Assembly (NCBI RefSeq): GCF_003711105.1
Contig: NZ_CP023865.1
Span: forward strand, 2,505,001 to 2,569,000
DNA length: 64,000 bases
Source: Actinoplanes teichomyceticus ATCC 31121
Lineage (GTDB): Bacteria > Actinomycetota > Actinomycetes > Mycobacteriales > Micromonosporaceae
Direction: 5' to 3'
Positions 3,142 through 13,024 of this stretch are shown here, piece by piece (position 1 is the stretch's first letter; each line of letters opens with the position of its first letter). The position numbers and the translations under genes were made by a program. The notes below the pieces were generated by a model. It did not search any database and had not been told where the DNA came from. It saw nothing but the letters and a program-made list of their open reading frames with translations.

Positions 3142-4220
3142 CGCCCCTCCTGTACCGGTCGGCCCCCGTGCTCCCCTCTATCCCTTCCTGCCTTCTATGC
3201 CGAAAACCGACCCCGCAAGTCAAGGCCCTTCGGCGTACGTCGAAGCCGCGGCCCACCGGGCGGTCTCCCACTCATGGAGACTATCGCCGGTCCCTCGATG
3301 GGCGGACTGTCATCTGAAATCCTGCTATAGCACCACGGCTGGATGCCGGTCAATCGACTGTTGACCAACGTGCGGCCGGAAGGACCATCTGAGTGCTCAT
3401 CGAGCCTCGCGGCAAATATGGCACTCGGACAGGTCACGTTCCGAAGAGGTTTCCAGGCATCGGCGTCCCGCGACGATCAACCGATTGCCGATACGTCCCT
3501 GTCCCGCGGCGATCAGCGGAACACCGATACGCCCCTCCCGGGTGGCACCCCGGTCACGGGCCCGGATGGCGCGCGATCTCCGTGCGCGATGCCGGGCCGG
3601 GTGGTGCAGCGGACGCGGGTTGCGGCGCCATGCCGGGTGGCGTGGCGCAGGGCGGCGCAGCGGAGGGCGGGCGTGATGCCGGCCGCGCCCGGTCTGCGGG
3701 TGTGGCGCCATGCCGGGTGGCGTGGCTGAGGGCGGGCGTGATGCCGGCCGCGCCCGGTCTGCGGGTGTGGCGCCATGCCGGGTGGCGTGGCCGAGGGCGG
3801 GCGCTGGTGCCGTCGGTGCGCCGGTCTTACGGGGGGCGGCGTCGCCGCGGGTGGCGCAGCCGGGGCCGGGCGTGGTGCCGGGGGCGTCCGGTCTGCGCGC
3901 CGGGCACTATGCCGGGTGGCGCAGCGGCGTGCGCGGAGCCACGGGTGCGGCGTCGCCGCGGGTGGCGCACCTTCAGCGAGCGTTGTTTCGTGACCGGCGG
4001 CGTACCGTGCGGTGGGCGCGGTGCCGTGAGGGCGGTGCACCGTTCAGTGCGGCGGTGTCGTGAGGGCGGCGGTGTGGCGCCGTGACGGCGCGCGGCCGGC
4101 TCACGTCCTGGCCAGGACGGTTCGGCGAGCGGCCGTCGCGCATCCGGCGTCGACCCGGCGTATGCGGTCGGCGGCTGTGTCGACGTGCGCCTCAGGCGAT
4201 GGAGGAGAGCGGGGGAGAGG
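3142..4220. other. Non-coding, low-complexity region
   Basis: About 1.1 kb without a convincing gene. Positions 3240-3480 are relatively AT-rich and may hold the CBS gene promoter. From 3580 onward the sequence is built from degenerate repeats of a gccgggtggcg-type motif. Long open frames exist in several phases (for example 3393-4085 plus strand), but their products are compositionally biased Arg/Ala/Gly strings without a recognisable domain. Confidence 0.7.
3664..3802. repeat. 65-base tandem repeat, two copies plus partial third
   Basis: The same point of the unit recurs at 3664, 3729 and 3794, a 65-base period. The first two copies are almost identical over their length; shorter derivatives of the gccatgccgggtggcg motif extend on both sides. 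Confidence 0.85.
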
Positions 4221-4754
4221 ATGGCGGACGTGTCTGACGGCAGGGTGGTGCGGCAGTTGGAGGCGATCGCCGAGGTGGTCGAGGTCAGCGGGCGGTTGGG
4301 CGTCACGGCCTGGTTGCGTGGTGGGTGGGCGATGGACTTCTTCCTCGGTGAGCTGACCCGCCCGCACGTAGACATCGACTGGTTCGTCTGGGATGACCAG
4401 GCGGCACGCCTGGCGGAGGCTCTGGTCGCCCGCGGCTGGGCGCTCGAGGCAGAGCCGCCGCACGACCGGCAGATGGATCTGAGCATGAGGGATGTCGAGC
4501 AGAGCCTGACGCTTCTGGGCCGTGACGAGTCCGGGAATCCGGTGGTTCCGGCCGGGCCGTGGGCCGGCGCGCCGTGGCCGGAGACCATGCTCGACGGTCC
4601 GCCGCGCACTCTGGCCGGCATCACCTGCCGGATCATCGCCCCGGAAGCGCAGATCGAGATCAAGCGGATGCTGCCGGTCTGGAATCCGGCCCTCCCGCGC
4701 CGCCCGAAGGACGCCACCGACATCGCCCGCCTCGAGGCTGCCCTGCGCCGCTGA
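4221..4754 (+). CDS. Aminoglycoside adenylyltransferase-like nucleotidyltransferase
   Basis: A 177-residue protein with the nucleotidyltransferase signature LRGGWAMDFFLGELTR followed by HVDIDWFV. This matches the ANT(2'')-like family, which adenylylates small-molecule hydroxyls such as those of aminoglycosides. The GG pair and DID acids would bind Mg-ATP. The C-terminal half carries EAQIEIKRMLP and a dispersed basic tail typical of the family. The start at 4221 is chosen because a purine-rich ribosome-binding stretch (4201-4220) precedes it; an in-frame ATG at 4185 lacks one. The gene stands alone. Family members in soil actinomycetes are often of unknown substrate, so resistance activity is only a possibility. 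Confidence 0.75.
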   Translation: MADVSDGRVVRQLEAIAEVVEVSGRLGVTAWLRGGWAMDFFLGELTRPHVDIDWFVWDDQAARLAEALVARGWALEAEPPHDRQMDLSMRDVEQSLTLLGRDESGNPVVPAGPWAGAPWPETMLDGPPRTLAGITCRIIAPEAQIEIKRMLPVWNPALPRRPKDATDIARLEAALRR

Positions 4755-5346: not shown

Positions 5347-6231
5347 TCAAGCGTCGAGTGGCACGTGCCCGGAGATCACCGCGTCCGGCCAGCCGGCGGG
5401 GATACGTTCGAGGACGCCACCGGCGAAGACCTCACGCAGCCCGAGCGGCTTCAGGTGCACGTAGCCGATGTGGCAGTCGCAGATCGCGTTCACGCAGGTT
5501 CGCGGGCGCAGCGCGGCACGCCACGTACCGTCGTACAGATTTCCGATCTCCTCCTGGACGAAGTGACAGCGCCGCACCGTGCCGTCACCGCGCACCGAGA
5601 TGGCCGTCTCCCCGGCGTGGCAGGGGCGGTCCAGCGACAGGTGGGGTCGCACGCTGTAGCCGAACAGCGGGTCGAGCGCGGTCCACCGCGCCTCCTCCTC
5701 GGGCGTGTACCGCCGGCCCTCGGCGGCGTTGACCCACACGTACACCCGCTCCGGAAGCGCGGCGCGCAGCGCGCGCGCCTCGTCGAGGTGTTCCGGAAGG
5801 CCGACCACCCCCACCGAGAAGCGCACGCCCATCCGCAGCAGCGCCGCGCAGCGGGCCAGGAACCGCTCCCGGGTGACCTGGCCCGGGTGATAGGTCGCCC
5901 AGAGCGCGGCGGTCGCCGGGTCGGCCGCGGCCAGCCAGTCCGGCCGGGCCGCCAGGTTCGTCTGGATCGCCACCCGCTCGACGTGCGGCAGATGCGACAG
6001 CGACACCATCGCGTCGCGGTACCAGCTGCGGGTCAGCCCCTCGCCCCACGGGGTGAAGAGCACCGACAGGCGTACGTCGGTGGTCGCGGCCACCCAGCCG
6101 GTGAAGCGCTCCAGCGCGGCGCGGTCCTCCCGCAGCAGCCCGGGCGGATCGTGCCGCTTCGCGAACGGGCAGTACGGGCAGTCGTAGTTGCAGCTCGCGA
6201 GCGGTCCGCGATAGAGCACGGCGAGCTTCAT
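5347..6231 (-). CDS. STM4011-family radical SAM protein
   Basis: A 294-residue radical SAM enzyme and the last gene of a seven-gene operon. The 4Fe-4S motif CxxxCxxC is present as C14, C18 and C21 (CNYDCPYC), beginning unusually close to the N-terminus. After the core domain, a second cysteine set (RPCHAG, RRCHF, then CVNAICDCH) looks like a SPASM/Twitch-type auxiliary cluster. Enzymes with that extension often modify peptides or proteins. The ATG overlaps the stop codon of the STM4012-type gene (ATGA at 6228-6231), implying translational coupling. The family name comes from Salmonella locus STM4011; to my knowledge the reaction is not established. The domain assignment is firm, the substrate unknown. 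Confidence 0.88.
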   Translation of the reverse strand: MKLAVLYRGPLASCNYDCPYCPFAKRHDPPGLLREDRAALERFTGWVAATTDVRLSVLFTPWGEGLTRSWYRDAMVSLSHLPHVERVAIQTNLAARPDWLAAADPATAALWATYHPGQVTRERFLARCAALLRMGVRFSVGVVGLPEHLDEARALRAALPERVYVWVNAAEGRRYTPEEEARWTALDPLFGYSVRPHLSLDRPCHAGETAISVRGDGTVRRCHFVQEEIGNLYDGTWRAALRPRTCVNAICDCHIGYVHLKPLGLREVFAGGVLERIPAGWPDAVISGHVPLDA

Positions 6232-7532
6232 CGAGCCTGGTACCCGGCCATCGCCCGGCGTACGTCGGCGGAGGTGAGCCAGGGGCCGACGGCGTCCGAG
6301 CGTTCCAGCCCGGCGGCGGTCAGGCGCAGCCCGCCGGGCTCCGCCCATCCGGCCTCGACCAGCCGGGCCAGCTGTGGGAAGTCCGCCGCCGGGTCGCTGG
6401 CGAACCTTTCCCGGTACGCCGCCGCGGGCACCCCGTCCACCCGCAGCAGCGACTTGATCAGCCACCGCCGCCGCTGCTCGGCCTCGTCCAGCGCGAAGCC
6501 CACCTCGGCGAACGCGAAGTCGTCCGGCGGCCGGGACAGGTAGTCGTCGAGCACCGCCCGGACCTGGCCCACCGAGACCGCGTAGTCGAACGAGTAGTGC
6601 AGCCGCCGGGTGTACGAGCGCGCCCCACAGCCGATCCCGACCATCCCGTCGTCCTGGCAGCAGTAGTCCGGTCCGTCGTCGGCGACCGTGGGCAGCCGGA
6701 ACTGCCGCATCGACTCCTGCCGGTAGCCGGCGGCCAGCAGCGCCTCGCGGCCCTGGCGGTAGAGCGCCAACCGCTGCGCGTCCCAGTCCGAGCGGGTGAC
6801 GGCGCGGCGGCCCAACCCGGTCAGCGGGCGTACGTACAGCGGGTAGAGGAATACCTCCTCGGGGCGCCAGGCCAGCGCGGCGTCCAGGCTGAACTGCCAG
6901 GACCGCGGGGTCTGGCCGTCGATGCCGTAGATCAGGTCGAGGTTGAGCACCGGCACCCGGGCGTCCCGGATCGCGCCGAGCGCCCGCTCCACGTCGGCGC
7001 GGCGCTGCGGACGGCCGGCCGCGCGGGACTCCGCGTCGAGGAAGCTCTGCACGCCGATGCTGACCCGGGTCGTGCCGTGCGCGGTGAGCACGCTCAGCCG
7101 GTCCGGGGTGGCGGTGGCCGGTGACGTCTCCACCGACAGCGGCGCCCCGGGCAACCGCGCGCCGAGCACGGTGGTGCAGATGTCGAACAGCTCGGCCAGC
7201 TCGCCCGCCTCCAGATGGGTCGGGGTGCCGCCGCCGAACGCGGCCCGGGCGAACGCCGCGTCCCCGACCGCGTCGCGCACCCGGGCGGCCTGGTGGCGCA
7301 GCTGGGCGAGATAGGCGGTGACCTGCTCGGCGGGAGCGTTGGCCCGGGTGAACAGGTTGCAGAAGCCGCATCGCATCTCGCAGAACGGCACGTGCACGTA
7401 GAGGAAGAGCGCGTCGACCGCCTCGTCACGCCACACGTCGGCCAGCGCGGGGCGCGGGCGCAGCGGGCGGTACGACGTCTTGTGCGGGTACGCGTACAGA
7501 TAGGCCTGGTAGGGGGAACCGTCGATCATCAT
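6228..7532 (-). CDS. STM4012-family radical SAM protein (HemN-like)
   Basis: A 434-residue radical SAM protein resembling the HemN/HemW group. The cluster motif is C51, C55 and C58 (FCEMRCGFC), followed by the SAM-binding GGGTP motif and the SIGVQSF stretch typical of that group. A C-terminal winged-helix-like region ends in SADVRRAMAGYQ. It is not a plain HemW because its partners are those of the STM4011-STM4015 set. Of two adjacent ATGs (7532 and 7529) the first is used here; it overlaps the stop of the upstream hydrolase gene in an ATGA. The protein probably generates a 5'-deoxyadenosyl radical for an unknown modification shared with its cluster partners. Confidence 0.88.
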   Translation of the reverse strand: MMIDGSPYQAYLYAYPHKTSYRPLRPRPALADVWRDEAVDALFLYVHVPFCEMRCGFCNLFTRANAPAEQVTAYLAQLRHQAARVRDAVGDAAFARAAFGGGTPTHLEAGELAELFDICTTVLGARLPGAPLSVETSPATATPDRLSVLTAHGTTRVSIGVQSFLDAESRAAGRPQRRADVERALGAIRDARVPVLNLDLIYGIDGQTPRSWQFSLDAALAWRPEEVFLYPLYVRPLTGLGRRAVTRSDWDAQRLALYRQGREALLAAGYRQESMRQFRLPTVADDGPDYCCQDDGMVGIGCGARSYTRRLHYSFDYAVSVGQVRAVLDDYLSRPPDDFAFAEVGFALDEAEQRRRWLIKSLLRVDGVPAAAYRERFASDPAADFPQLARLVEAGWAEPGGLRLTAAGLERSDAVGPWLTSADVRRAMAGYQAR

Positions 7533-8329
7533 GCTCCCGGGGTCAGCACGAACTGGGCGTACGGCACGGTCCACACCACCTCGTGACCGACCCGGTGTCC
7601 GGTGTGGCCGTCCTCGCCGTACGCCGTGCCGTGGTCCGCGCAGACGATCGTGAACACCGGCCGGTCCCGCCCGCTGACCAGCTGGAACAGGCGGTCGATG
7701 CGGCTGTCGACGTACTCCAGGGCGGCCGCGTGGCTGTCCCGGCTGTCGGTGGCGGCGCCGGGCAGGTAGTGCCGGTTGGGCTGGTGCAGGGCGGCCACGT
7801 TGAGGAAGGTGAACAGCGGCTGCCCGGCCGGCAGCGCGCCGAGCGACGCCTCCAGGCGCCGCAGCTGGGCGCCGAGGCAGTCCGGCGCGGTCACCCCGAA
7901 CTCCGGTTCCCAGTGCGCCTCGGCGAACAGGCCGGGCAGCACCCGGCCGAGCGCGCCGCGCTGGTTGAAGAAGCCGACCCCGCCCAGGCAGAGCGTGTGG
8001 TAGCCGGCCCCGGCGAGCGCGGTGGGCAGGTCCGGCGCGTCGAACACCCAGGTGTCCGGCCCGGACGTCGTGCTGCCGGGGAACGCGGCGGCGTAGAGCC
8101 GCTCGTGGTCGCCCGGGGAGTCGGGGGTGGGCAGGAACCCGGCGAAGAACGCGTGGTGGGCGGCGTAGGTGAAGCTGGCCGGGGAGTGCCGCCGCTCCCA
8201 GCGGCCGCCCGGCAGCACCCGGGACAGGTGCGGCGTGCGGCCGGTCGCGGCCAGCTCGGCGGCCACGTCGTAGCGCAACGTGTCCAGGGTGACCAGGAGG
8301 ATGTCGTGGCTGCCGATCAGCGAACGCAC
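7529..8329 (-). CDS. STM4013/SEN3800-family hydrolase (alkaline phosphatase superfamily)
   Basis: A 266-residue protein with the alkaline-phosphatase/sulfatase fold. The N-terminal metal site and nucleophile region read DILLVTLDTLRYD; the C-terminal metal ligands are ADHG and HTGHRVGHE. The fold usually hydrolyses phosphate or sulfate esters or transfers phospho-groups. A GTG start at 8329 is chosen because a gggagg ribosome-binding site lies 6-7 bases upstream and translation begins directly before the conserved core. This gives a 13-base overlap with the ATP-grasp gene. Longer in-frame readings upstream are shadows of that gene. Part of the STM4011-STM4015 set; substrate unknown. Confidence 0.85.
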   Translation of the reverse strand: MRSLIGSHDILLVTLDTLRYDVAAELAATGRTPHLSRVLPGGRWERRHSPASFTYAAHHAFFAGFLPTPDSPGDHERLYAAAFPGSTTSGPDTWVFDAPDLPTALAGAGYHTLCLGGVGFFNQRGALGRVLPGLFAEAHWEPEFGVTAPDCLGAQLRRLEASLGALPAGQPLFTFLNVAALHQPNRHYLPGAATDSRDSHAAALEYVDSRIDRLFQLVSGRDRPVFTIVCADHGTAYGEDGHTGHRVGHEVVWTVPYAQFVLTPGA

Positions 8330-9387
8330 GCGGCCTCCCGGTGCCGCTGCCAGCGGCCGCTGACCAGCGCGTGGATCTGCTCGGCCCAGGTGTCGCGGCC
8401 GTCGTGCCGCACGCCGGGGATCAGGTCGCCGAACGCGTTCACCTCGGCGACCGCGTGTCGCGCCCGGCCGGCCAGGAACATCAGGTCGACGCCGACGTGC
8501 AGGCTGCGCGGGAAGCAGGCGGCCACCCGCTCGCAGGTCTCCATCGCGGCGGTCCAGGCCGCCGGGCCGGTGTGCGCGCGGAACGCGGCCAGGTCGCCGC
8601 GGGCGTTGCCCAGGTGCAGATTGGTCAGCGGGCTGCGGGACGTCCGGACCACCACGTGCGTGGGGCGCCCGGCGATCACCACCACGCGCAGGTCGGCGAC
8701 CCGGTCGCCCAGGCGGGCCTTGGGCAGCCAGCGCTCCACGTGCAGGCCGTCCGGGGCGAGCCGGTCGACGATGGCCGCGATCTGTGGCTCGGTCGTGTAC
8801 CGCCGCAGGCGCAGCGAGTTGAACAGCCCGTCCGGGGTGAGCTCGACCGAGGTGGTGGCCAGCACCCGGCCCGGCCCGACGGCGAACGCCAGCACCCCGG
8901 AGGCGGAGGAGCCGTGCGCCGGTTTGACGAAGACCCGGTGCCACCCCGCGGCGCTCATCGCCTCGCGCAACTGCGGATAGGAGCGCACCGGTGGCAGCGC
9001 CGCGGGCACCGGGATCCCGGCGGCGGACAGCAGCGCGTGGCACCGGCGCTTGTCGCAGAGCACCGCGATGTCGCCGGGGTGGTTGAGCGGGTCGGCCCCG
9101 CCGGACACCGCCCGCGTGGCAGCCGTGACCAGCCCGGCGTACGCGGCGGCCAGGCCGAGGATCTCGCCGTGGCGGGCGGGCCGGTCGCCGCCGCGCAGCA
9201 GGCGATCGACCTGCGCGTCCTCGCCGGGCGAGTCGATGCGCAGCAGCCCGCCGGTGGGCGCCGGGGCCCCGCTCAGCAGCTCCCGCCAGGGCAGCACCCG
9301 CGGCCGGGGCAGGCCGGCCGCCACCGCCGCCCCGACGAAGCCGGCCACCCGGCGGTTCGCCGGGTTGCCGATCACGGACAGCCGCAT
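8317..9387 (-). CDS. STM4014-family ATP-grasp protein
   Basis: A 356-residue protein with an ATP-grasp architecture. It has a divergent N-terminal subdomain (to about residue 110), DKRRCHALLSAAGIPVP, the phosphate-loop-like FVKPAHGSSASGV, a central DLRVVVIAGRP strand and the metal-binding HVGVDLMF and VAEVNAFGDL. ATP-grasp enzymes join a carboxylate to an amine or thiol through an acyl phosphate; RimK-like members act on protein or peptide termini. The gene starts one base after the stop of the first leucine-rich gene and overlaps the hydrolase gene by 13 bases. The fold is visible; the acceptor is unknown. Confidence 0.82.
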   Translation of the reverse strand: MRLSVIGNPANRRVAGFVGAAVAAGLPRPRVLPWRELLSGAPAPTGGLLRIDSPGEDAQVDRLLRGGDRPARHGEILGLAAAYAGLVTAATRAVSGGADPLNHPGDIAVLCDKRRCHALLSAAGIPVPAALPPVRSYPQLREAMSAAGWHRVFVKPAHGSSASGVLAFAVGPGRVLATTSVELTPDGLFNSLRLRRYTTEPQIAAIVDRLAPDGLHVERWLPKARLGDRVADLRVVVIAGRPTHVVVRTSRSPLTNLHLGNARGDLAAFRAHTGPAAWTAAMETCERVAACFPRSLHVGVDLMFLAGRARHAVAEVNAFGDLIPGVRHDGRDTWAEQIHALVSGRWQRHREAACVR

Positions 9388-9388
9388 G

Positions 9389-10336
9389 TCACTCGGCCAC
9401 CGCGGTGTAGCGCTCGGAGAAGTGTTCGCCGCCGGAGTCGTACTCGTCCGGCTCCTGCGGGTCGCCGACGTCGACGCGCACCCCGGGCAGCGCGGCCACC
9501 ACGGCCGCCGCGGTCTGCTCGGACATGTAGTGGAACCGCAGGTTCAGCTCGCGCAGGTGGGTGAGGGGCTGCCCGGCCAGCAGGGCGGCCGCGCCGGCGT
9601 CGCCGAGCGTGCCCATCGACAGGTCGAGCGACTCCAGACGCTGGACCACCGGCGCCCCGGCGAGCGCGGCGGCGATGTCGTCGGCGAACTCGGCGTTGCG
9701 CAGGCCGAGCCGGCGCAGGTTCGGGAAGAGCTCGCCGTCCAGCAGCGGGCGCAGCACGTCGAGCGTGACCCGGCCGCCGTAGTCCGCCACGCCCAGCCAC
9801 AGCTCCAGATCGGTCAGGGCGGGCAACCGGGAGGCGAGCACCGCGCCGGCGAAGTCCGCGCCGAGGCCGCCGCTCTGCACCACCAGCCGGCGCAGGCTGT
9901 CGTGGCGGACCGGGGCGGCGAACCGGAAGTCCTCGCCGCCGCGCACCTGCAGCGTCTCCAGCCGTGGGTAGGCGGTGAGCAGCGGGCTGACGTCGCCCAC
10001 CTTCATCCAGGAGATTTCGCACTCCTCCGCGCCGATGTCACCGAGGAACAGCGAGCGCAGCCGGGGCAGGCGCGGGGCGGCCGCGCAGATCTGCGCGACC
10101 GGCGCGGGGGCGAAGGCGGCGTACCCCCACGAGCCGATCACCAGGGACTCCACGGCCGGGCCGAGGTCGGTCACGAACGCCTCGAACTTGGCGCGGAACT
10201 CCTCGCAGAGCTTGATGTCGACGGAGCCGTCGTAGCCGACGTGGGACACCCGCCACGCGACCGGGCCGGTGGTGTCCTGCGGGTAGTCGACGACCCGGCG
10301 GCCGTCGAAGGAACCGGTGCCGGAGGAGAACGTCAT
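9389..10336 (-). CDS. STM4015-family leucine-rich protein, copy A
   Basis: A 315-residue protein with about six leucine-rich repeats in the middle and C-terminal half (LRRLVVQSGGL, LTDLELWLG, LRRLGLRNAEF, LESLDLSMGTLG, LRELNLRFHYM). It is closely related to its neighbour 10344-11279. Shared blocks are GSWGYAA, RSLFLGDI, CEISWMKVGDVSPLL and GGEDFRF. After the repeats a divergent acidic linker leads to the tail RYTAVAE, which recurs as RYTAVSE in the neighbour. No signal peptide or membrane segment is present. In this operon it may be a scaffold, a recognition protein or the substrate of the radical SAM and ATP-grasp enzymes; none of these roles is shown by sequence alone. Confidence 0.85.
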   Translation of the reverse strand: MTFSSGTGSFDGRRVVDYPQDTTGPVAWRVSHVGYDGSVDIKLCEEFRAKFEAFVTDLGPAVESLVIGSWGYAAFAPAPVAQICAAAPRLPRLRSLFLGDIGAEECEISWMKVGDVSPLLTAYPRLETLQVRGGEDFRFAAPVRHDSLRRLVVQSGGLGADFAGAVLASRLPALTDLELWLGVADYGGRVTLDVLRPLLDGELFPNLRRLGLRNAEFADDIAAALAGAPVVQRLESLDLSMGTLGDAGAAALLAGQPLTHLRELNLRFHYMSEQTAAAVVAALPGVRVDVGDPQEPDEYDSGGEHFSERYTAVAE

Positions 10337-10343
10337 GGCGTGC

Positions 10344-11279
10344 TCACTCCGAGACCGCGGTGTAACGGGACGAGCCGCGCGGTTGCTGGCGTTCCGAGAC
10401 GTCGACGCGGACCCCGGGCAGCGCGGCCACCACCGACTCGGCCACGGGCGCGGTCATGTAGTGGTGGTGCAGGTCGAGTTCGCGCAGATGGGTCAGCGAC
10501 CGGCCGGCCAGCAGCGCGGCGGCGCCCTGGTCGCCGAGCGTGCCCAGGGACAGGTCGAGCGACTCCAGGCGCTGCACGACCGGCGCGGCGGCCACCGCGC
10601 CGGCCAGCTGATCGGCGATCTCGGCGTTGCGCAGGCCGAGGCGGCGCAGCTCGGGGAACAGGTCGCCGGCCAGCAGCGGGGCCAGGTCGGGCGGGGTGAT
10701 GTCGCCGCCGTAGTCGCTGACGCCGAGCCAGAGCTCCAGGGCGGTCAGCGCGGGCAACTCGGAGGCCAGCACGGCCGCGGCGAAGTCGCGCGGCAGGCCG
10801 CCGCTCTGCACCACCAGCTCGCGCAGCCGCTCGTGCCGCACCGGGGAGAACCGGAAGTCCTCGCCGCCGCGCACCCACAGCACCTGCAGCGCGGGGAACG
10901 CGGCCAGCAGCGGACTCACGTCGCCGACCTTCATCCAGGAGATCTCGCACTCGTCGAAGGTGATGTCGCCCAGGAACAGCGCCCGCAGCCGGGGCAGGCG
11001 CGGCGCCAGCGCACACAGGTGCCCGATCGGGGCGACGTTCAGCGCGGCGTAGCCCCAGGAGCCGACGACCAGGGCGGTCGTGTCCGCGCCGGCCTGGTCG
11101 ACGAACCGGTCCAGCAGGGCGGTGAACTCCGCGGAGACCTGGTCCTCGTCGTCGTCCTCCACCTCCGGGTCGGCGATGCGCCACGCGACCGGGCCGGTCA
11201 CCGCCGGCAGCGGCCCCTCGGCGGGGAACTCCACGACCGGTAGACCGGCGAAGGTCTCGGCACTGCTGTTGAAGGTCAT
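10344..11279 (-). CDS. STM4015-family leucine-rich protein, copy B
   Basis: A 311-residue paralogue of the 9389-10336 protein, seven bases upstream of it. It keeps the same block order (GSWGYAAL, ALFLGDI, CEISWMKVGDVSPLL, GGEDFRF, LVVQSGGLP) and the same run of leucine-rich repeats. An acidic insert (EVEDDDEDQ, residues about 39-47) and a different linker before the C-terminal RYTAVSE distinguish it. Copies A and B look like a tandem duplication that has diverged mainly in the N-terminal 50 residues and the linker. The ATG overlaps the stop of the membrane-protein gene (ATGA), so the cluster continues upstream. Function unknown. Confidence 0.85.
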   Translation of the reverse strand: MTFNSSAETFAGLPVVEFPAEGPLPAVTGPVAWRIADPEVEDDDEDQVSAEFTALLDRFVDQAGADTTALVVGSWGYAALNVAPIGHLCALAPRLPRLRALFLGDITFDECEISWMKVGDVSPLLAAFPALQVLWVRGGEDFRFSPVRHERLRELVVQSGGLPRDFAAAVLASELPALTALELWLGVSDYGGDITPPDLAPLLAGDLFPELRRLGLRNAEIADQLAGAVAAAPVVQRLESLDLSLGTLGDQGAAALLAGRSLTHLRELDLHHHYMTAPVAESVVAALPGVRVDVSERQQPRGSSRYTAVSE

Positions 11280-11866
11280 CGGCGCCCCCTGCCCTGCGTT
11301 CGACTCAGCGGCGCGACCGTAGCAGGAGCCACCGACAGAACGCCGCCCGCCCGCGGCCCGCGGGACCGGCGCAGGGCCCGCCCGGCCAGAGTGAGCAGCA
11401 GGATCGTGGCGGTGTCGCACAGCGCGGCGAGGACCAGGCCGGAGCCGGAGAGGCCGGTGGCCGTGACGGCCCGCAGCACCAGGCAGGCGGCGGCGCTGAG
11501 CGCGGCCACGGCGGCGAGCCGGCCCACCCGGTCGCGGCGTGGCCGGAACCGGTCGCCGTGGCCCTGCCACCAGCCGGGCAGCCGGCGCTCCACCAGCGTG
11601 GCGAACAGCAGCGCGGGCAGGGTGACCGTGGCGGCCAGCGCCAGCGACAGCAGCAGCCCGGCGCCGGCCACGGTGGCCGACACCGCGGTCACCGTGCCGA
11701 GGGTGATCACGTCGAACCGGCGCAGGCCCCAGCGGCCCTGCGCGAGCAGCCACACCGCGGCGACCGCGAGCGGCGAGAACCCGGGCAGCAGGGTGCCCAC
11801 CCAGTGGACGAGCAGGTACGCGGCGGCGAACACGGCGGTCCGGGCGGCGTAGCGGGCGACGGTCAT
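11276..11866 (-). CDS. Polytopic membrane protein leading the STM4011-4015 operon
   Basis: A 196-residue protein with about five to six hydrophobic segments (residues roughly 8-27, 30-45, 52-70, 72-92, 115-135 and 140-162) and a basic, disordered C-terminus. A gagg ribosome-binding site lies eight bases before the ATG. Its stop overlaps the start of leucine-rich copy B, so it is the probable first gene of the operon. The arrangement recalls the N-terminal sensory membrane domain MASE1, but I could not confirm that. It is not among the STM4011-STM4015 families, so it may be a lineage-specific addition or simply co-transcribed. Confidence 0.65.
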   Translation of the reverse strand: MTVARYAARTAVFAAAYLLVHWVGTLLPGFSPLAVAAVWLLAQGRWGLRRFDVITLGTVTAVSATVAGAGLLLSLALAATVTLPALLFATLVERRLPGWWQGHGDRFRPRRDRVGRLAAVAALSAAACLVLRAVTATGLSGSGLVLAALCDTATILLLTLAGRALRRSRGPRAGGVLSVAPATVAPLSRTQGRGRR

Positions 11867-11992: not shown

Positions 11993-13024
11993 TCACGCCA
12001 CGCCGACCTCCCGGAACGCGGCCCGGACGGTCTGCGGGGCGTGCCGGCCCGCCTTGCCGTCGCGGGCCAGGAGCCGAGCCTGCTCGGCGCAGATGTAGGC
12101 GCAGTCCTTGAACTGCGCCTGCGGCCAGAGGTTCTGCAACGCGGCGTAGAAGATCTTGGCGGCCGGGAACGAGCCGAGCTCGATCGCGGTCAGGTAGAAG
12201 GCGCGGTTGACGATGCCGCTGTTGATGTGCGGGTCGCCGCTGGGCACGTACCGCGACATGTGCGCGGCCTGCGGGTCCTTGCCGAGCACCGGGTTGTCGT
12301 AGGCGGTGCCGGGGTGGGCCATCGAGCGGATCGCCTCGCCGTACATCGGGTCGGCCATGACCTGCTCGCCGATCAGCCAGTTGTGCTCGCCGGCGTCCAC
12401 ATGCTGCACGTACTGCTCGACGCAGGCGCCGAAGATGTCGGAGAACGCCTCGTTGAGCGCGCCCGGCTGGTCGGTGTAGACCAGCCCGGCGGTGTACTGG
12501 GTGACCCCGTGCGTCAGCTCGTGCGCGCACACGTCGATGTCCCGGGTGAAGTCCTGGAAGACCTGGCCGTCGCCGTTGCCGAAGACCATCCGGGTGCCGT
12601 CCCAGAACGCGTTGCCGTACTTCTCGCCGTAGTTCACGTCGCCGAGCAGCGCCGATCCGGCGCCGTCGATCGAATGGCGGCCGAGCACCTCCCGGAAGAA
12701 CTCGCGGGTCGCGCCGAGCGCGTCGTAGGCGGCGTTGACGTTCCCCGCGGCCACCGGGTCGTCGCCCTCGCCGCGCACCGCCTGCACCCCGGTCTCGAAC
12801 CGGTGCTGATCGTCGAAGATGTGCCGGTCGCCGTTGCCCGGCGAGGGCGCGGTGACCGCGTTGAGGCCGGTGGCGGCCAGCAGCAGGCGGCGCTGCTGGC
12901 GGACCGCGGTGGAGGCGACCGCGGTGCGTTGCGCGGCATCCGCGTCCAGTCCGAGCTGGCGGGCGTTGCGCGCGATGTGATCGACGATGTACGACGGGAC
13001 GTAGAAGCAGACCGATCCGGACAT
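11993..13024 (-). CDS. Protealysin-like M4 metallopeptidase
   Basis: A 343-residue zinc metallopeptidase of the thermolysin family (M4). The zinc motif is HELTH (residues about 168-172), and the third ligand lies in GALNEAFSD about 20 residues on. NSGIVNRAFY and a final active-site His region complete the family pattern. The N-terminus is a short leader (CFYVPSYIVDHIARNA), as in protealysins, in place of the long propeptide of secreted thermolysins, and no signal peptide is visible. The ATG at 13024 follows a strong aggggg ribosome-binding site. Location is therefore probably cytoplasmic or exported by a non-classical route. The gene stands alone. Confidence 0.88.
   Translation of the reverse strand: MSGSVCFYVPSYIVDHIARNARQLGLDADAAQRTAVASTAVRQQRRLLLAATGLNAVTAPSPGNGDRHIFDDQHRFETGVQAVRGEGDDPVAAGNVNAAYDALGATREFFREVLGRHSIDGAGSALLGDVNYGEKYGNAFWDGTRMVFGNGDGQVFQDFTRDIDVCAHELTHGVTQYTAGLVYTDQPGALNEAFSDIFGACVEQYVQHVDAGEHNWLIGEQVMADPMYGEAIRSMAHPGTAYDNPVLGKDPQAAHMSRYVPSGDPHINSGIVNRAFYLTAIELGSFPAAKIFYAALQNLWPQAQFKDCAYICAEQARLLARDGKAGRHAPQTVRAAFREVGVA

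Follow-up and report, generated by a model that had tools for sequence, protein, structure and literature searches.

Closest described systems and the STM4011-STM4015 operon

The closest described systems are those of the amino-group carriers, LysW with LysX or ArgX and Vzb22, in which an acidic globular protein with a conserved C-terminal glutamate is paired with an ATP-grasp ligase of the RimK/LysX type. The same combination was found in an operon of Actinoplanes teichomyceticus ATCC 31121, located in a stretch of 64,000 nucleotides (NZ_CP023865.1, positions 2,505,001 to 2,569,000) that is called the window below. The conserved unit is a set of six genes, E1-E2-D-C-B-A, with its own promoter-like site. 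It encodes two leucine-rich repeat (LRR) proteins of the STM4015 family (E1 and E2, collectively E), an ATP-grasp ligase (D, STM4014), an alkaline-phosphatase-fold enzyme (C, STM4013) and two radical S-adenosylmethionine (SAM) enzymes (B, STM4012, and A, STM4011). We propose that E is an LRR carrier or substrate whose terminal Glu is loaded by D, that the adduct is processed by A, B and C, and that in this lineage the operon is under DNA-damage control. We give this reading a probability of about 0.5.

The likeness to the amino-group carriers has limits. Unlike LysW, E is an LRR protein and lacks a zinc finger; moreover, E and D are accompanied here by two radical SAM enzymes and a phosphoesterase-fold enzyme, and no release enzyme was recognised. 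Pearlins are made with tRNA-dependent ligases and not with ATP-grasp enzymes. In their pathways (PMC9303977) the C-terminus of a carrier is the site at which small molecules are assembled, as proposed here for E, but that carrier is a short peptide and not an LRR protein. The maturases of ribosomally synthesised and post-translationally modified peptides (RiPPs) that carry a SPASM domain, such as SkfB, share with A a CxxxCxxC motif and a Cys-rich part; however, no short precursor peptide was seen in the operon and NCBIfam places A in a subfamily of its own. No functional study of STM4011-STM4015 was found in the literature searches, and in the portions of two papers that name them STM4013 and STM4015 occur only as table rows (PMC3844500, PMC2784778).

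Co-occurrence and gene order

The genome surveys were made within Actinomycetota, with the curated cut-offs of NCBIfam, and co-occurrence was assessed in 81 related genomes of one family. STM4015 exceeded its cut-off in 33 genomes, STM4013 in 34, and STM4011, STM4012 and STM4014 in 32 each. All five families were present in the same 32 genomes, 47 had none, and two had a partial set: G078 with STM4015 and STM4013 above cut-off and adjoining fragments of B and D, and G032 with STM4013 only. In G037, STM4011 reads as two pieces. The near-invariant partnership is thus borne out, and the outcome that a first-pass annotation of this DNA had named as refuting its reading, five genes that occur independently in most genomes, was not obtained in these 81 genomes of one family. 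STM4011 was above cut-off in 3 of 149 sampled genomes of the phylum, the genome of the window among them, so the distribution in the phylum is patchy.

Gene order was compared in the best 80 of 558 STM4012 relatives. Judged by stop positions, 72 of these loci had all five genes in the order E(1-6)-D-C-B-A, one of them with B in two pieces. D was not in place in five of the other eight (L031-L034 and L073), two (L056 and L107) start at a contig end, and the last is taken up with the alternatives below. The number of LRR gene copies per operon ranged from 1 to 6, which does not fit the earlier suggestion that the products are needed in fixed proportion. The order E(n)-D-C-B-A was also seen on Salmonella, Deinococcus, Methylobacterium and Paenibacillus plasmids. 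In the operon of Bacteroides finegoldii (L118, 8800-9170) only remnants of STM4013 and STM4012 lie between STM4014 and STM4011.

A gene for a HAD-type phosphatase overlaps STM4011 in Salmonella (L111) and is fused to it in B. finegoldii. At the sensitivity of megablast, no place in 5426 E. coli genomes covered 80% of the Salmonella operon; 94 genomes matched about 3% of it, and all 20 matches listed were to the HAD gene. Five records of a phage collection matched E. On plasmids of Rhizobium (L112) and Cupriavidus (L113) a distant STM4012-like radical SAM gene overlaps a SAM methyltransferase gene, with no STM4015 within the stretch viewed; the Rhizobium gene adjoins pseudoazurin and cbb3 oxidase genes.

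The C-terminal tail of the LRR protein

E proteins end in a short conserved tail, preceded by a linker that is variable, also in length. Glu was the last residue in 175 of 177 E proteins read from loci, and the exceptions (L042 and L044) have ends that are apparently frame-disturbed. Together with 120 database proteins these made a set of 297. A length filter kept 294 of them, and reduction to 75% non-redundancy left 141. Terminal Glu was present in 140 of the 141 (exception L042) and the pattern [YFW]xx[VIL]xE in 135, with Tyr or Phe at position -6 in 134, Val, Ile or Leu at -3 in 137, and Ser, Ala, Gly or Thr at -2. By conservation the terminal Glu ranked 11th among 299 alignment columns, behind LRR structural positions. 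When six non-actinobacterial E proteins were used as queries, all 120 matches listed (of 2552) ended in Glu; at 75% non-redundancy this held for 36 of 36, and 35 of 36 showed the full pattern. Among LRR relatives outside operons, L129, the more distant L132 and the disrupted L131 lack the tail, and L130, which is truncated at its start, has it.

A protein of the STM4015 family has been solved by structural genomics, 2ra8 (Q64V53) of Bacteroides fragilis, for which no paper was found under either the entry or its accession; its aligned sequence ends in YPMITE. Related STM4015 proteins of the Bacteroides type, e.g. P0243, have a WGR domain (PF05406) at the N-terminus; elsewhere this domain is found in PARP and MolR proteins.

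Split operons

In the five loci in which D is not in place, C follows E directly (with an assembly gap in L033). All five genomes have STM4014 above cut-off elsewhere, which in these drafts means on another contig, and each time after another STM4015 copy; in G229, D is split over the ends of two contigs, with E adjoining its first part. Each genome has one STM4013 (in two pieces in G232), beside the other E. The E copies of both halves keep the tail. That each half keeps an E of its own would be expected if every enzyme needs E.

The ligase and the other enzymes

The fold of D is that of a RimK/LysX-type ATP-grasp enzyme. The leading matches in VIA-align were ArgX, LysX and RimK, one structure being in complex with LysW; the graspetide ligase PsnB, the top match in Foldseek, was absent among the 50 VIA-align matches listed.

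In A, residues C14, C18, C21, C204, C222, C246, C251 and C253 were invariant in 19 of 19 sequences. In a set of 87 the five C-terminal Cys were invariant and the three radical SAM Cys were present in at least 97%. The only solved structure found with the profile of A at E 0.01 was SkfB (E 7e-4), A residues 193-263 aligning with SkfB 323-397; no SPASM match was obtained in Pfam. As judged from its sequence, A is a radical SAM enzyme with SPASM-like auxiliary-cluster Cys, for which cluster binding is predicted. B shares the radical SAM core and the HemN_C domain with HemN, HemW, ChuW and NocN, and its relatives in the PDB are HemN (1olt) and the methyltransferase NocN (9p2u). Yet B fell below the cut-off of every HemN-type NCBIfam model listed and exceeded that of STM4012 only.

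C, at only 266 aa, shares with the nucleotide pyrophosphatases/phosphodiesterases (NPP), of the alkaline phosphatase superfamily, a Thr segment, aligned with weak scores, and an invariant set of Asp and His. The residues D16, T54, D232, H233 and H245 were invariant in 82 sequences; we take them to be the Thr nucleophile and the Asp/His metal ligands. The profile of C gave 14 matches, with sulfatases among them, all of weak sequence similarity, and Thr54 occupies the position of the formylglycine residue of sulfatases. The combination of a SPASM-like A with a sulfatase-fold C suggested that C might be a sulfatase whose formylglycine is made by A. This idea was rejected because the invariant residue at the nucleophile position is Thr, not Cys or Ser. 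A role in anti-phage defence was likewise discarded: a single weak PADLOC match, of B to PDC-M51A (E 2.5e-5), was obtained among the seven proteins encoded here, with no further support.

A putative DNA-damage-type promoter

The LexA-independent DNA-damage promoters of mycobacteria are described by the consensus tTGTCRgtg-8nt-TannnT (PMC5656591). The site upstream of E1 (Table 1) matches TGTCRGTG-N8-TAnnnT exactly and lies 36 bases before the E1 start codon. When the 350 bases upstream of the first E gene were searched in 113 cases, some genomes being repeated, 63 matched with at most two mismatches, against 4.5% of random windows. A second set comprised the 77 named loci whose upstream sequence extends to 100 bases or more, searched within 150 bases; many are from related genera, so that their sites are not independent. 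Here 42 loci matched at up to two mismatches and 29 at up to one, against 1.4% and 0.06% of letter-shuffled sequences. The reversed pattern matched in 1 and 0 of the 77 loci at these thresholds, and the pattern with the spacer shortened by two in 3 and 0. In the motif-bearing loci T at position 14 and G at position 15 were each present in 40 of 42, although neither is demanded by the pattern.

The genome of the window contains two exact sites, one of them that of the operon (one site for the control pattern), and, at one mismatch, 106 sites against 27 for the control. The second exact site (G000:C1 7816496-7816517) lies 6 bases before a helicase gene nearest YoaA/DinG, below the cut-offs of those models. 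Four promoter-like places with one mismatch, chosen by eye, precede a RecQ-family helicase gene, a gene for an unknown protein, an aminotransferase-type gene and, in one case, no long open reading frame (ORF). The RecQ-family gene has a tandem pair of sites upstream, with one mismatch each (G000:C1 572694-572861). In 11 loci, of which ten are from Actinomadura and one is from Thermomonospora, a RecQ-like gene lies no more than about 3.5 kb from the operon, which may reflect synteny of the lineage. Going by the promoter motif, it is probably the RecA/LexA-independent DNA-damage response that induces the operon in actinoplanetes and their relatives.

Proposed mechanism and alternatives

The first-pass annotation had likened these genes to a maturation pathway in which the leucine-rich proteins would act as carrier, as recognition factor or as substrate, and this part of its interpretation is supported. 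We suggest that E would be the common substrate or carrier of the E1-E2-D-C-B-A pathway, its LRR body serving for docking and its C-terminal Glu as the attachment point. D would activate this Glu and form a bond between it and the amino group of a small molecule, which may be an amino acid. A, B and C, the last through its putative Thr nucleophile, might then alter the bound molecule or the adjoining conserved tail. The gene set, its co-occurrence in one family, the conserved tail, the folds, the split arrangement and the promoter motif are results of computation, whereas the ligation itself, the small molecule, the order of the steps, the product, a release step and the regulation are inferred.

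Several observations weigh against this proposal. As regards D, its profile ranks biotin carboxylases between LysX and RimK among PDB entries, Pfam places D nearest to ATPgrasp_ST (29 of 35) and YheC/D (17 of 35), with RimK at only 3 of 35, the top Foldseek match is PsnB with its precursor peptide, and the LysX motif GSWGR, which reads EDWGE, was found in none of 101 D proteins. D is basic in the window, but in Deinococcus (pI 7.4) and Bacteroides (pI 7.6) it is close to neutral. The tail of E differs from EDWGE, given as the terminal motif of LysW-family carriers in PMC10433800, and that of Salmonella E (NAMYTE) has no aromatic residue at -6. In the AlphaFold2 model of E the mean confidence (pLDDT) is 91 at residues 301-310 and 67 at the last residue, and 2ra8 aligns up to residue 311, the last of the model; the tail may therefore be packed against the LRR and not reach out. 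Third E copies (L151-L153) keep the tail with no other core gene within 1.5 kb on either side, as does the E protein of a Calothrix plasmid, of which the 10 kb viewed contain no annotated partner. One locus, L069 of Streptosporangium subroseum, has E, D, B and A with no C between D and B, as seen at the locus itself. No operon-specific peptidase or exporter that might serve for release was recognised by eye in the 14 commonest flank clusters. Finally, 35 of the 77 upstream regions have no match to the promoter motif, and with the spacer lengthened by two the pattern still matched in 10 loci at up to two mismatches and in 2 at up to one.

An alternative is a RiPP-like system, with the tail of E as core peptide and the LRR as an oversized leader. 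A and/or B would then form a radical-mediated bond or a methylation at Tyr -6 and Val -3, and D would make an ester or amide within the tail or the acidic linker in the fashion of graspetides. SkfB as the sole PDB relative of A, PsnB as the first Foldseek match of D and the conservation of positions -6 and -3 all speak for it. However, the most conserved residue of the tail is the terminal Glu itself, position -2 shows no fixed ester partner, the leading VIA-align matches of D are ArgX, LysX and RimK, and the flanks showed no conserved protease or exporter. We regard it as rather unlikely. It is unlikely too that E is an unmodified recognition or scaffold protein, with the tail as docking peptide or structural cap, and that the small molecule made by D, A, B and C is a free one. 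The well-ordered tail that can be aligned with 2ra8 through its end, the LRR-body loops kept across phyla (judged by eye) and the retention of the tail in E copies without neighbours agree with such a role. For a cap, however, one would not expect a free C-terminal Glu to be required in 140 of 141 proteins after a linker of variable length, and the ligases nearest D in fold act on C-terminal Glu of proteins.

D might also add one or more glutamates to the C-terminus of E to tune binding, as RimK does on ribosomal protein S6, with the radical SAM enzymes acting elsewhere. This would leave unexplained both the regular association with A, B and C and the fact that C-B-A retains its own E where D is elsewhere, and we consider it very unlikely. 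The proposal that E is loaded at its terminal Glu can also be widened. It is possible, although we would put it below even odds, that these operons, spread over at least five phyla, encode a carrier protein of a new class, an LRR protein Glu-loaded by its own ATP-grasp ligase on which two radical SAM enzymes build a metabolite or a permanent group, induced by DNA damage in actinobacteria. In a bolder form of the same idea E itself would resemble Pup, in that DNA damage would be followed by its conjugation to other proteins, with the terminal Glu as the point of linkage.

Operon layout and flanking genes

Seven packed ORFs, all on the minus strand, were confirmed on the window sequence as the first-pass annotation had described them (Table 1), and its assignment to STM4011-STM4015 holds for six, STM4015 being represented twice. 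The NCBIfam bit scores (cut-offs) were 397.6 (200) for A, 612.3 (380) for B, 403.3 (250) for C, 427.7 (175) for D, and 326.4 and 344.2 for E2 and E1 (both 275). E1 and E2 are separated by 7 bases and E2 and D by 1 base; D and C overlap by 13 bases, and C/B and B/A are ATGA overlaps. C starts with GTG, with GGGAGG upstream, and B has an alternative ATG start at 7529.

Table 1. Positions of the operon features in the window
Feature	Position	Strand	Basis and remarks
M, membrane-protein ORF	11276-11866	-	accessory; 3' end overlaps the promoter-like site of E1
Promoter-like site TGTCGGTG-N8-TACGGT	11316-11337	-	upstream of E1; DNA-damage consensus match
E1, STM4015-family LRR protein (NF038076), 311 aa	10344-11279	-	NCBIfam
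E1 C-terminal tail RYTAVSE, last residue the conserved Glu	10347-10367	-	alignment
E2, second STM4015-family LRR protein	9389-10336	-	NCBIfam; 62% identity to E1
E2 C-terminal tail RYTAVAE	9392-9412	-	alignment
D, STM4014-family ATP-grasp ligase (NF038074), RimK/LysX/ArgX-like by fold	8317-9387	-	NCBIfam, structure search
C, STM4013-family alkaline-phosphatase-fold enzyme (NF038075), Thr54 at nucleophile position	7529-8329	-	NCBIfam, alignment
B, STM4012-family HemN-like radical SAM enzyme (NF006067), CxxxCxxC at 51-58	6228-7532	-	NCBIfam
A, STM4011-family radical SAM enzyme (NF038073), CxxxCxxC at 14-21, SPASM-like C204/C222/C246/C251/C253	5347-6231	-	

The seventh ORF, M, had been counted as part of the cluster, but it occurs in 3 of the 80 related loci (L031, L033 and L034), which rules it out as a member of the conserved unit. 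It had no match in NCBIfam, Pfam or PADLOC. In those three loci the frame of M ends ahead of the promoter-like site of E, whereas in the window it continues through the site. The 4-base overlap of M and E1 is therefore no evidence for translational coupling.

A DUF6745 protein is linked to the operon in 45 of the 80 loci and a small protein with a GHxH motif in 38, usually convergent to the operon. Most of the flanking DUF6745 proteins end in YxPxx[QE]T, and in three of the five split genomes the gene lies beside the E-D half. DUF6745 was not found in the genome of the window in a search whose control also matched nowhere, so that its absence is not proven. Both were treated as accessory and not as core genes. 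Upstream of the operon the window encodes a thermolysin-type M4 metallopeptidase (11993-13000, minus strand) and a siderophore-interacting protein (PF04954, PF08021; 13285-14205, minus strand); the apparent end of an M4-metallopeptidase-type gene was also seen by eye upstream of E in L032. About a dozen loci, L101 among them, have ABC transporter genes, of methionine type as judged by eye, on the upstream side of the operon. On the other side are an ORF matching PF10706, the aminoglycoside-2''-adenylyltransferase family (4185-4754, plus strand, E 1e-10), and, at 1-2405, the 3' part of a 23S rRNA gene and a 5S rRNA gene.

Significance

Five families named only by Salmonella locus tags travel together in one actinobacterial family, and the same gene order is seen in examples from Bacillota, Deinococcota and Pseudomonadota, with a partly decayed example from Bacteroidota. 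To what was known from the first-pass annotation the present analysis adds the C-terminal Glu tail, the model of a LysX/ArgX-like ligase and the split operons, as well as a SPASM-like region in STM4011, the finding that STM4013 carries Thr at its nucleophile position, and a promoter-like site of the DNA-damage type. We know of no precedent for an LRR protein as scaffold in carrier-bound biosynthesis. With a predicted attachment residue, the terminal Glu, a ligase and a predicted inducing condition, DNA damage, this neglected gene set is directly open to test. Should the LRR protein prove to be a carrier, a large unexplored pathway would be opened to radical SAM enzymology.

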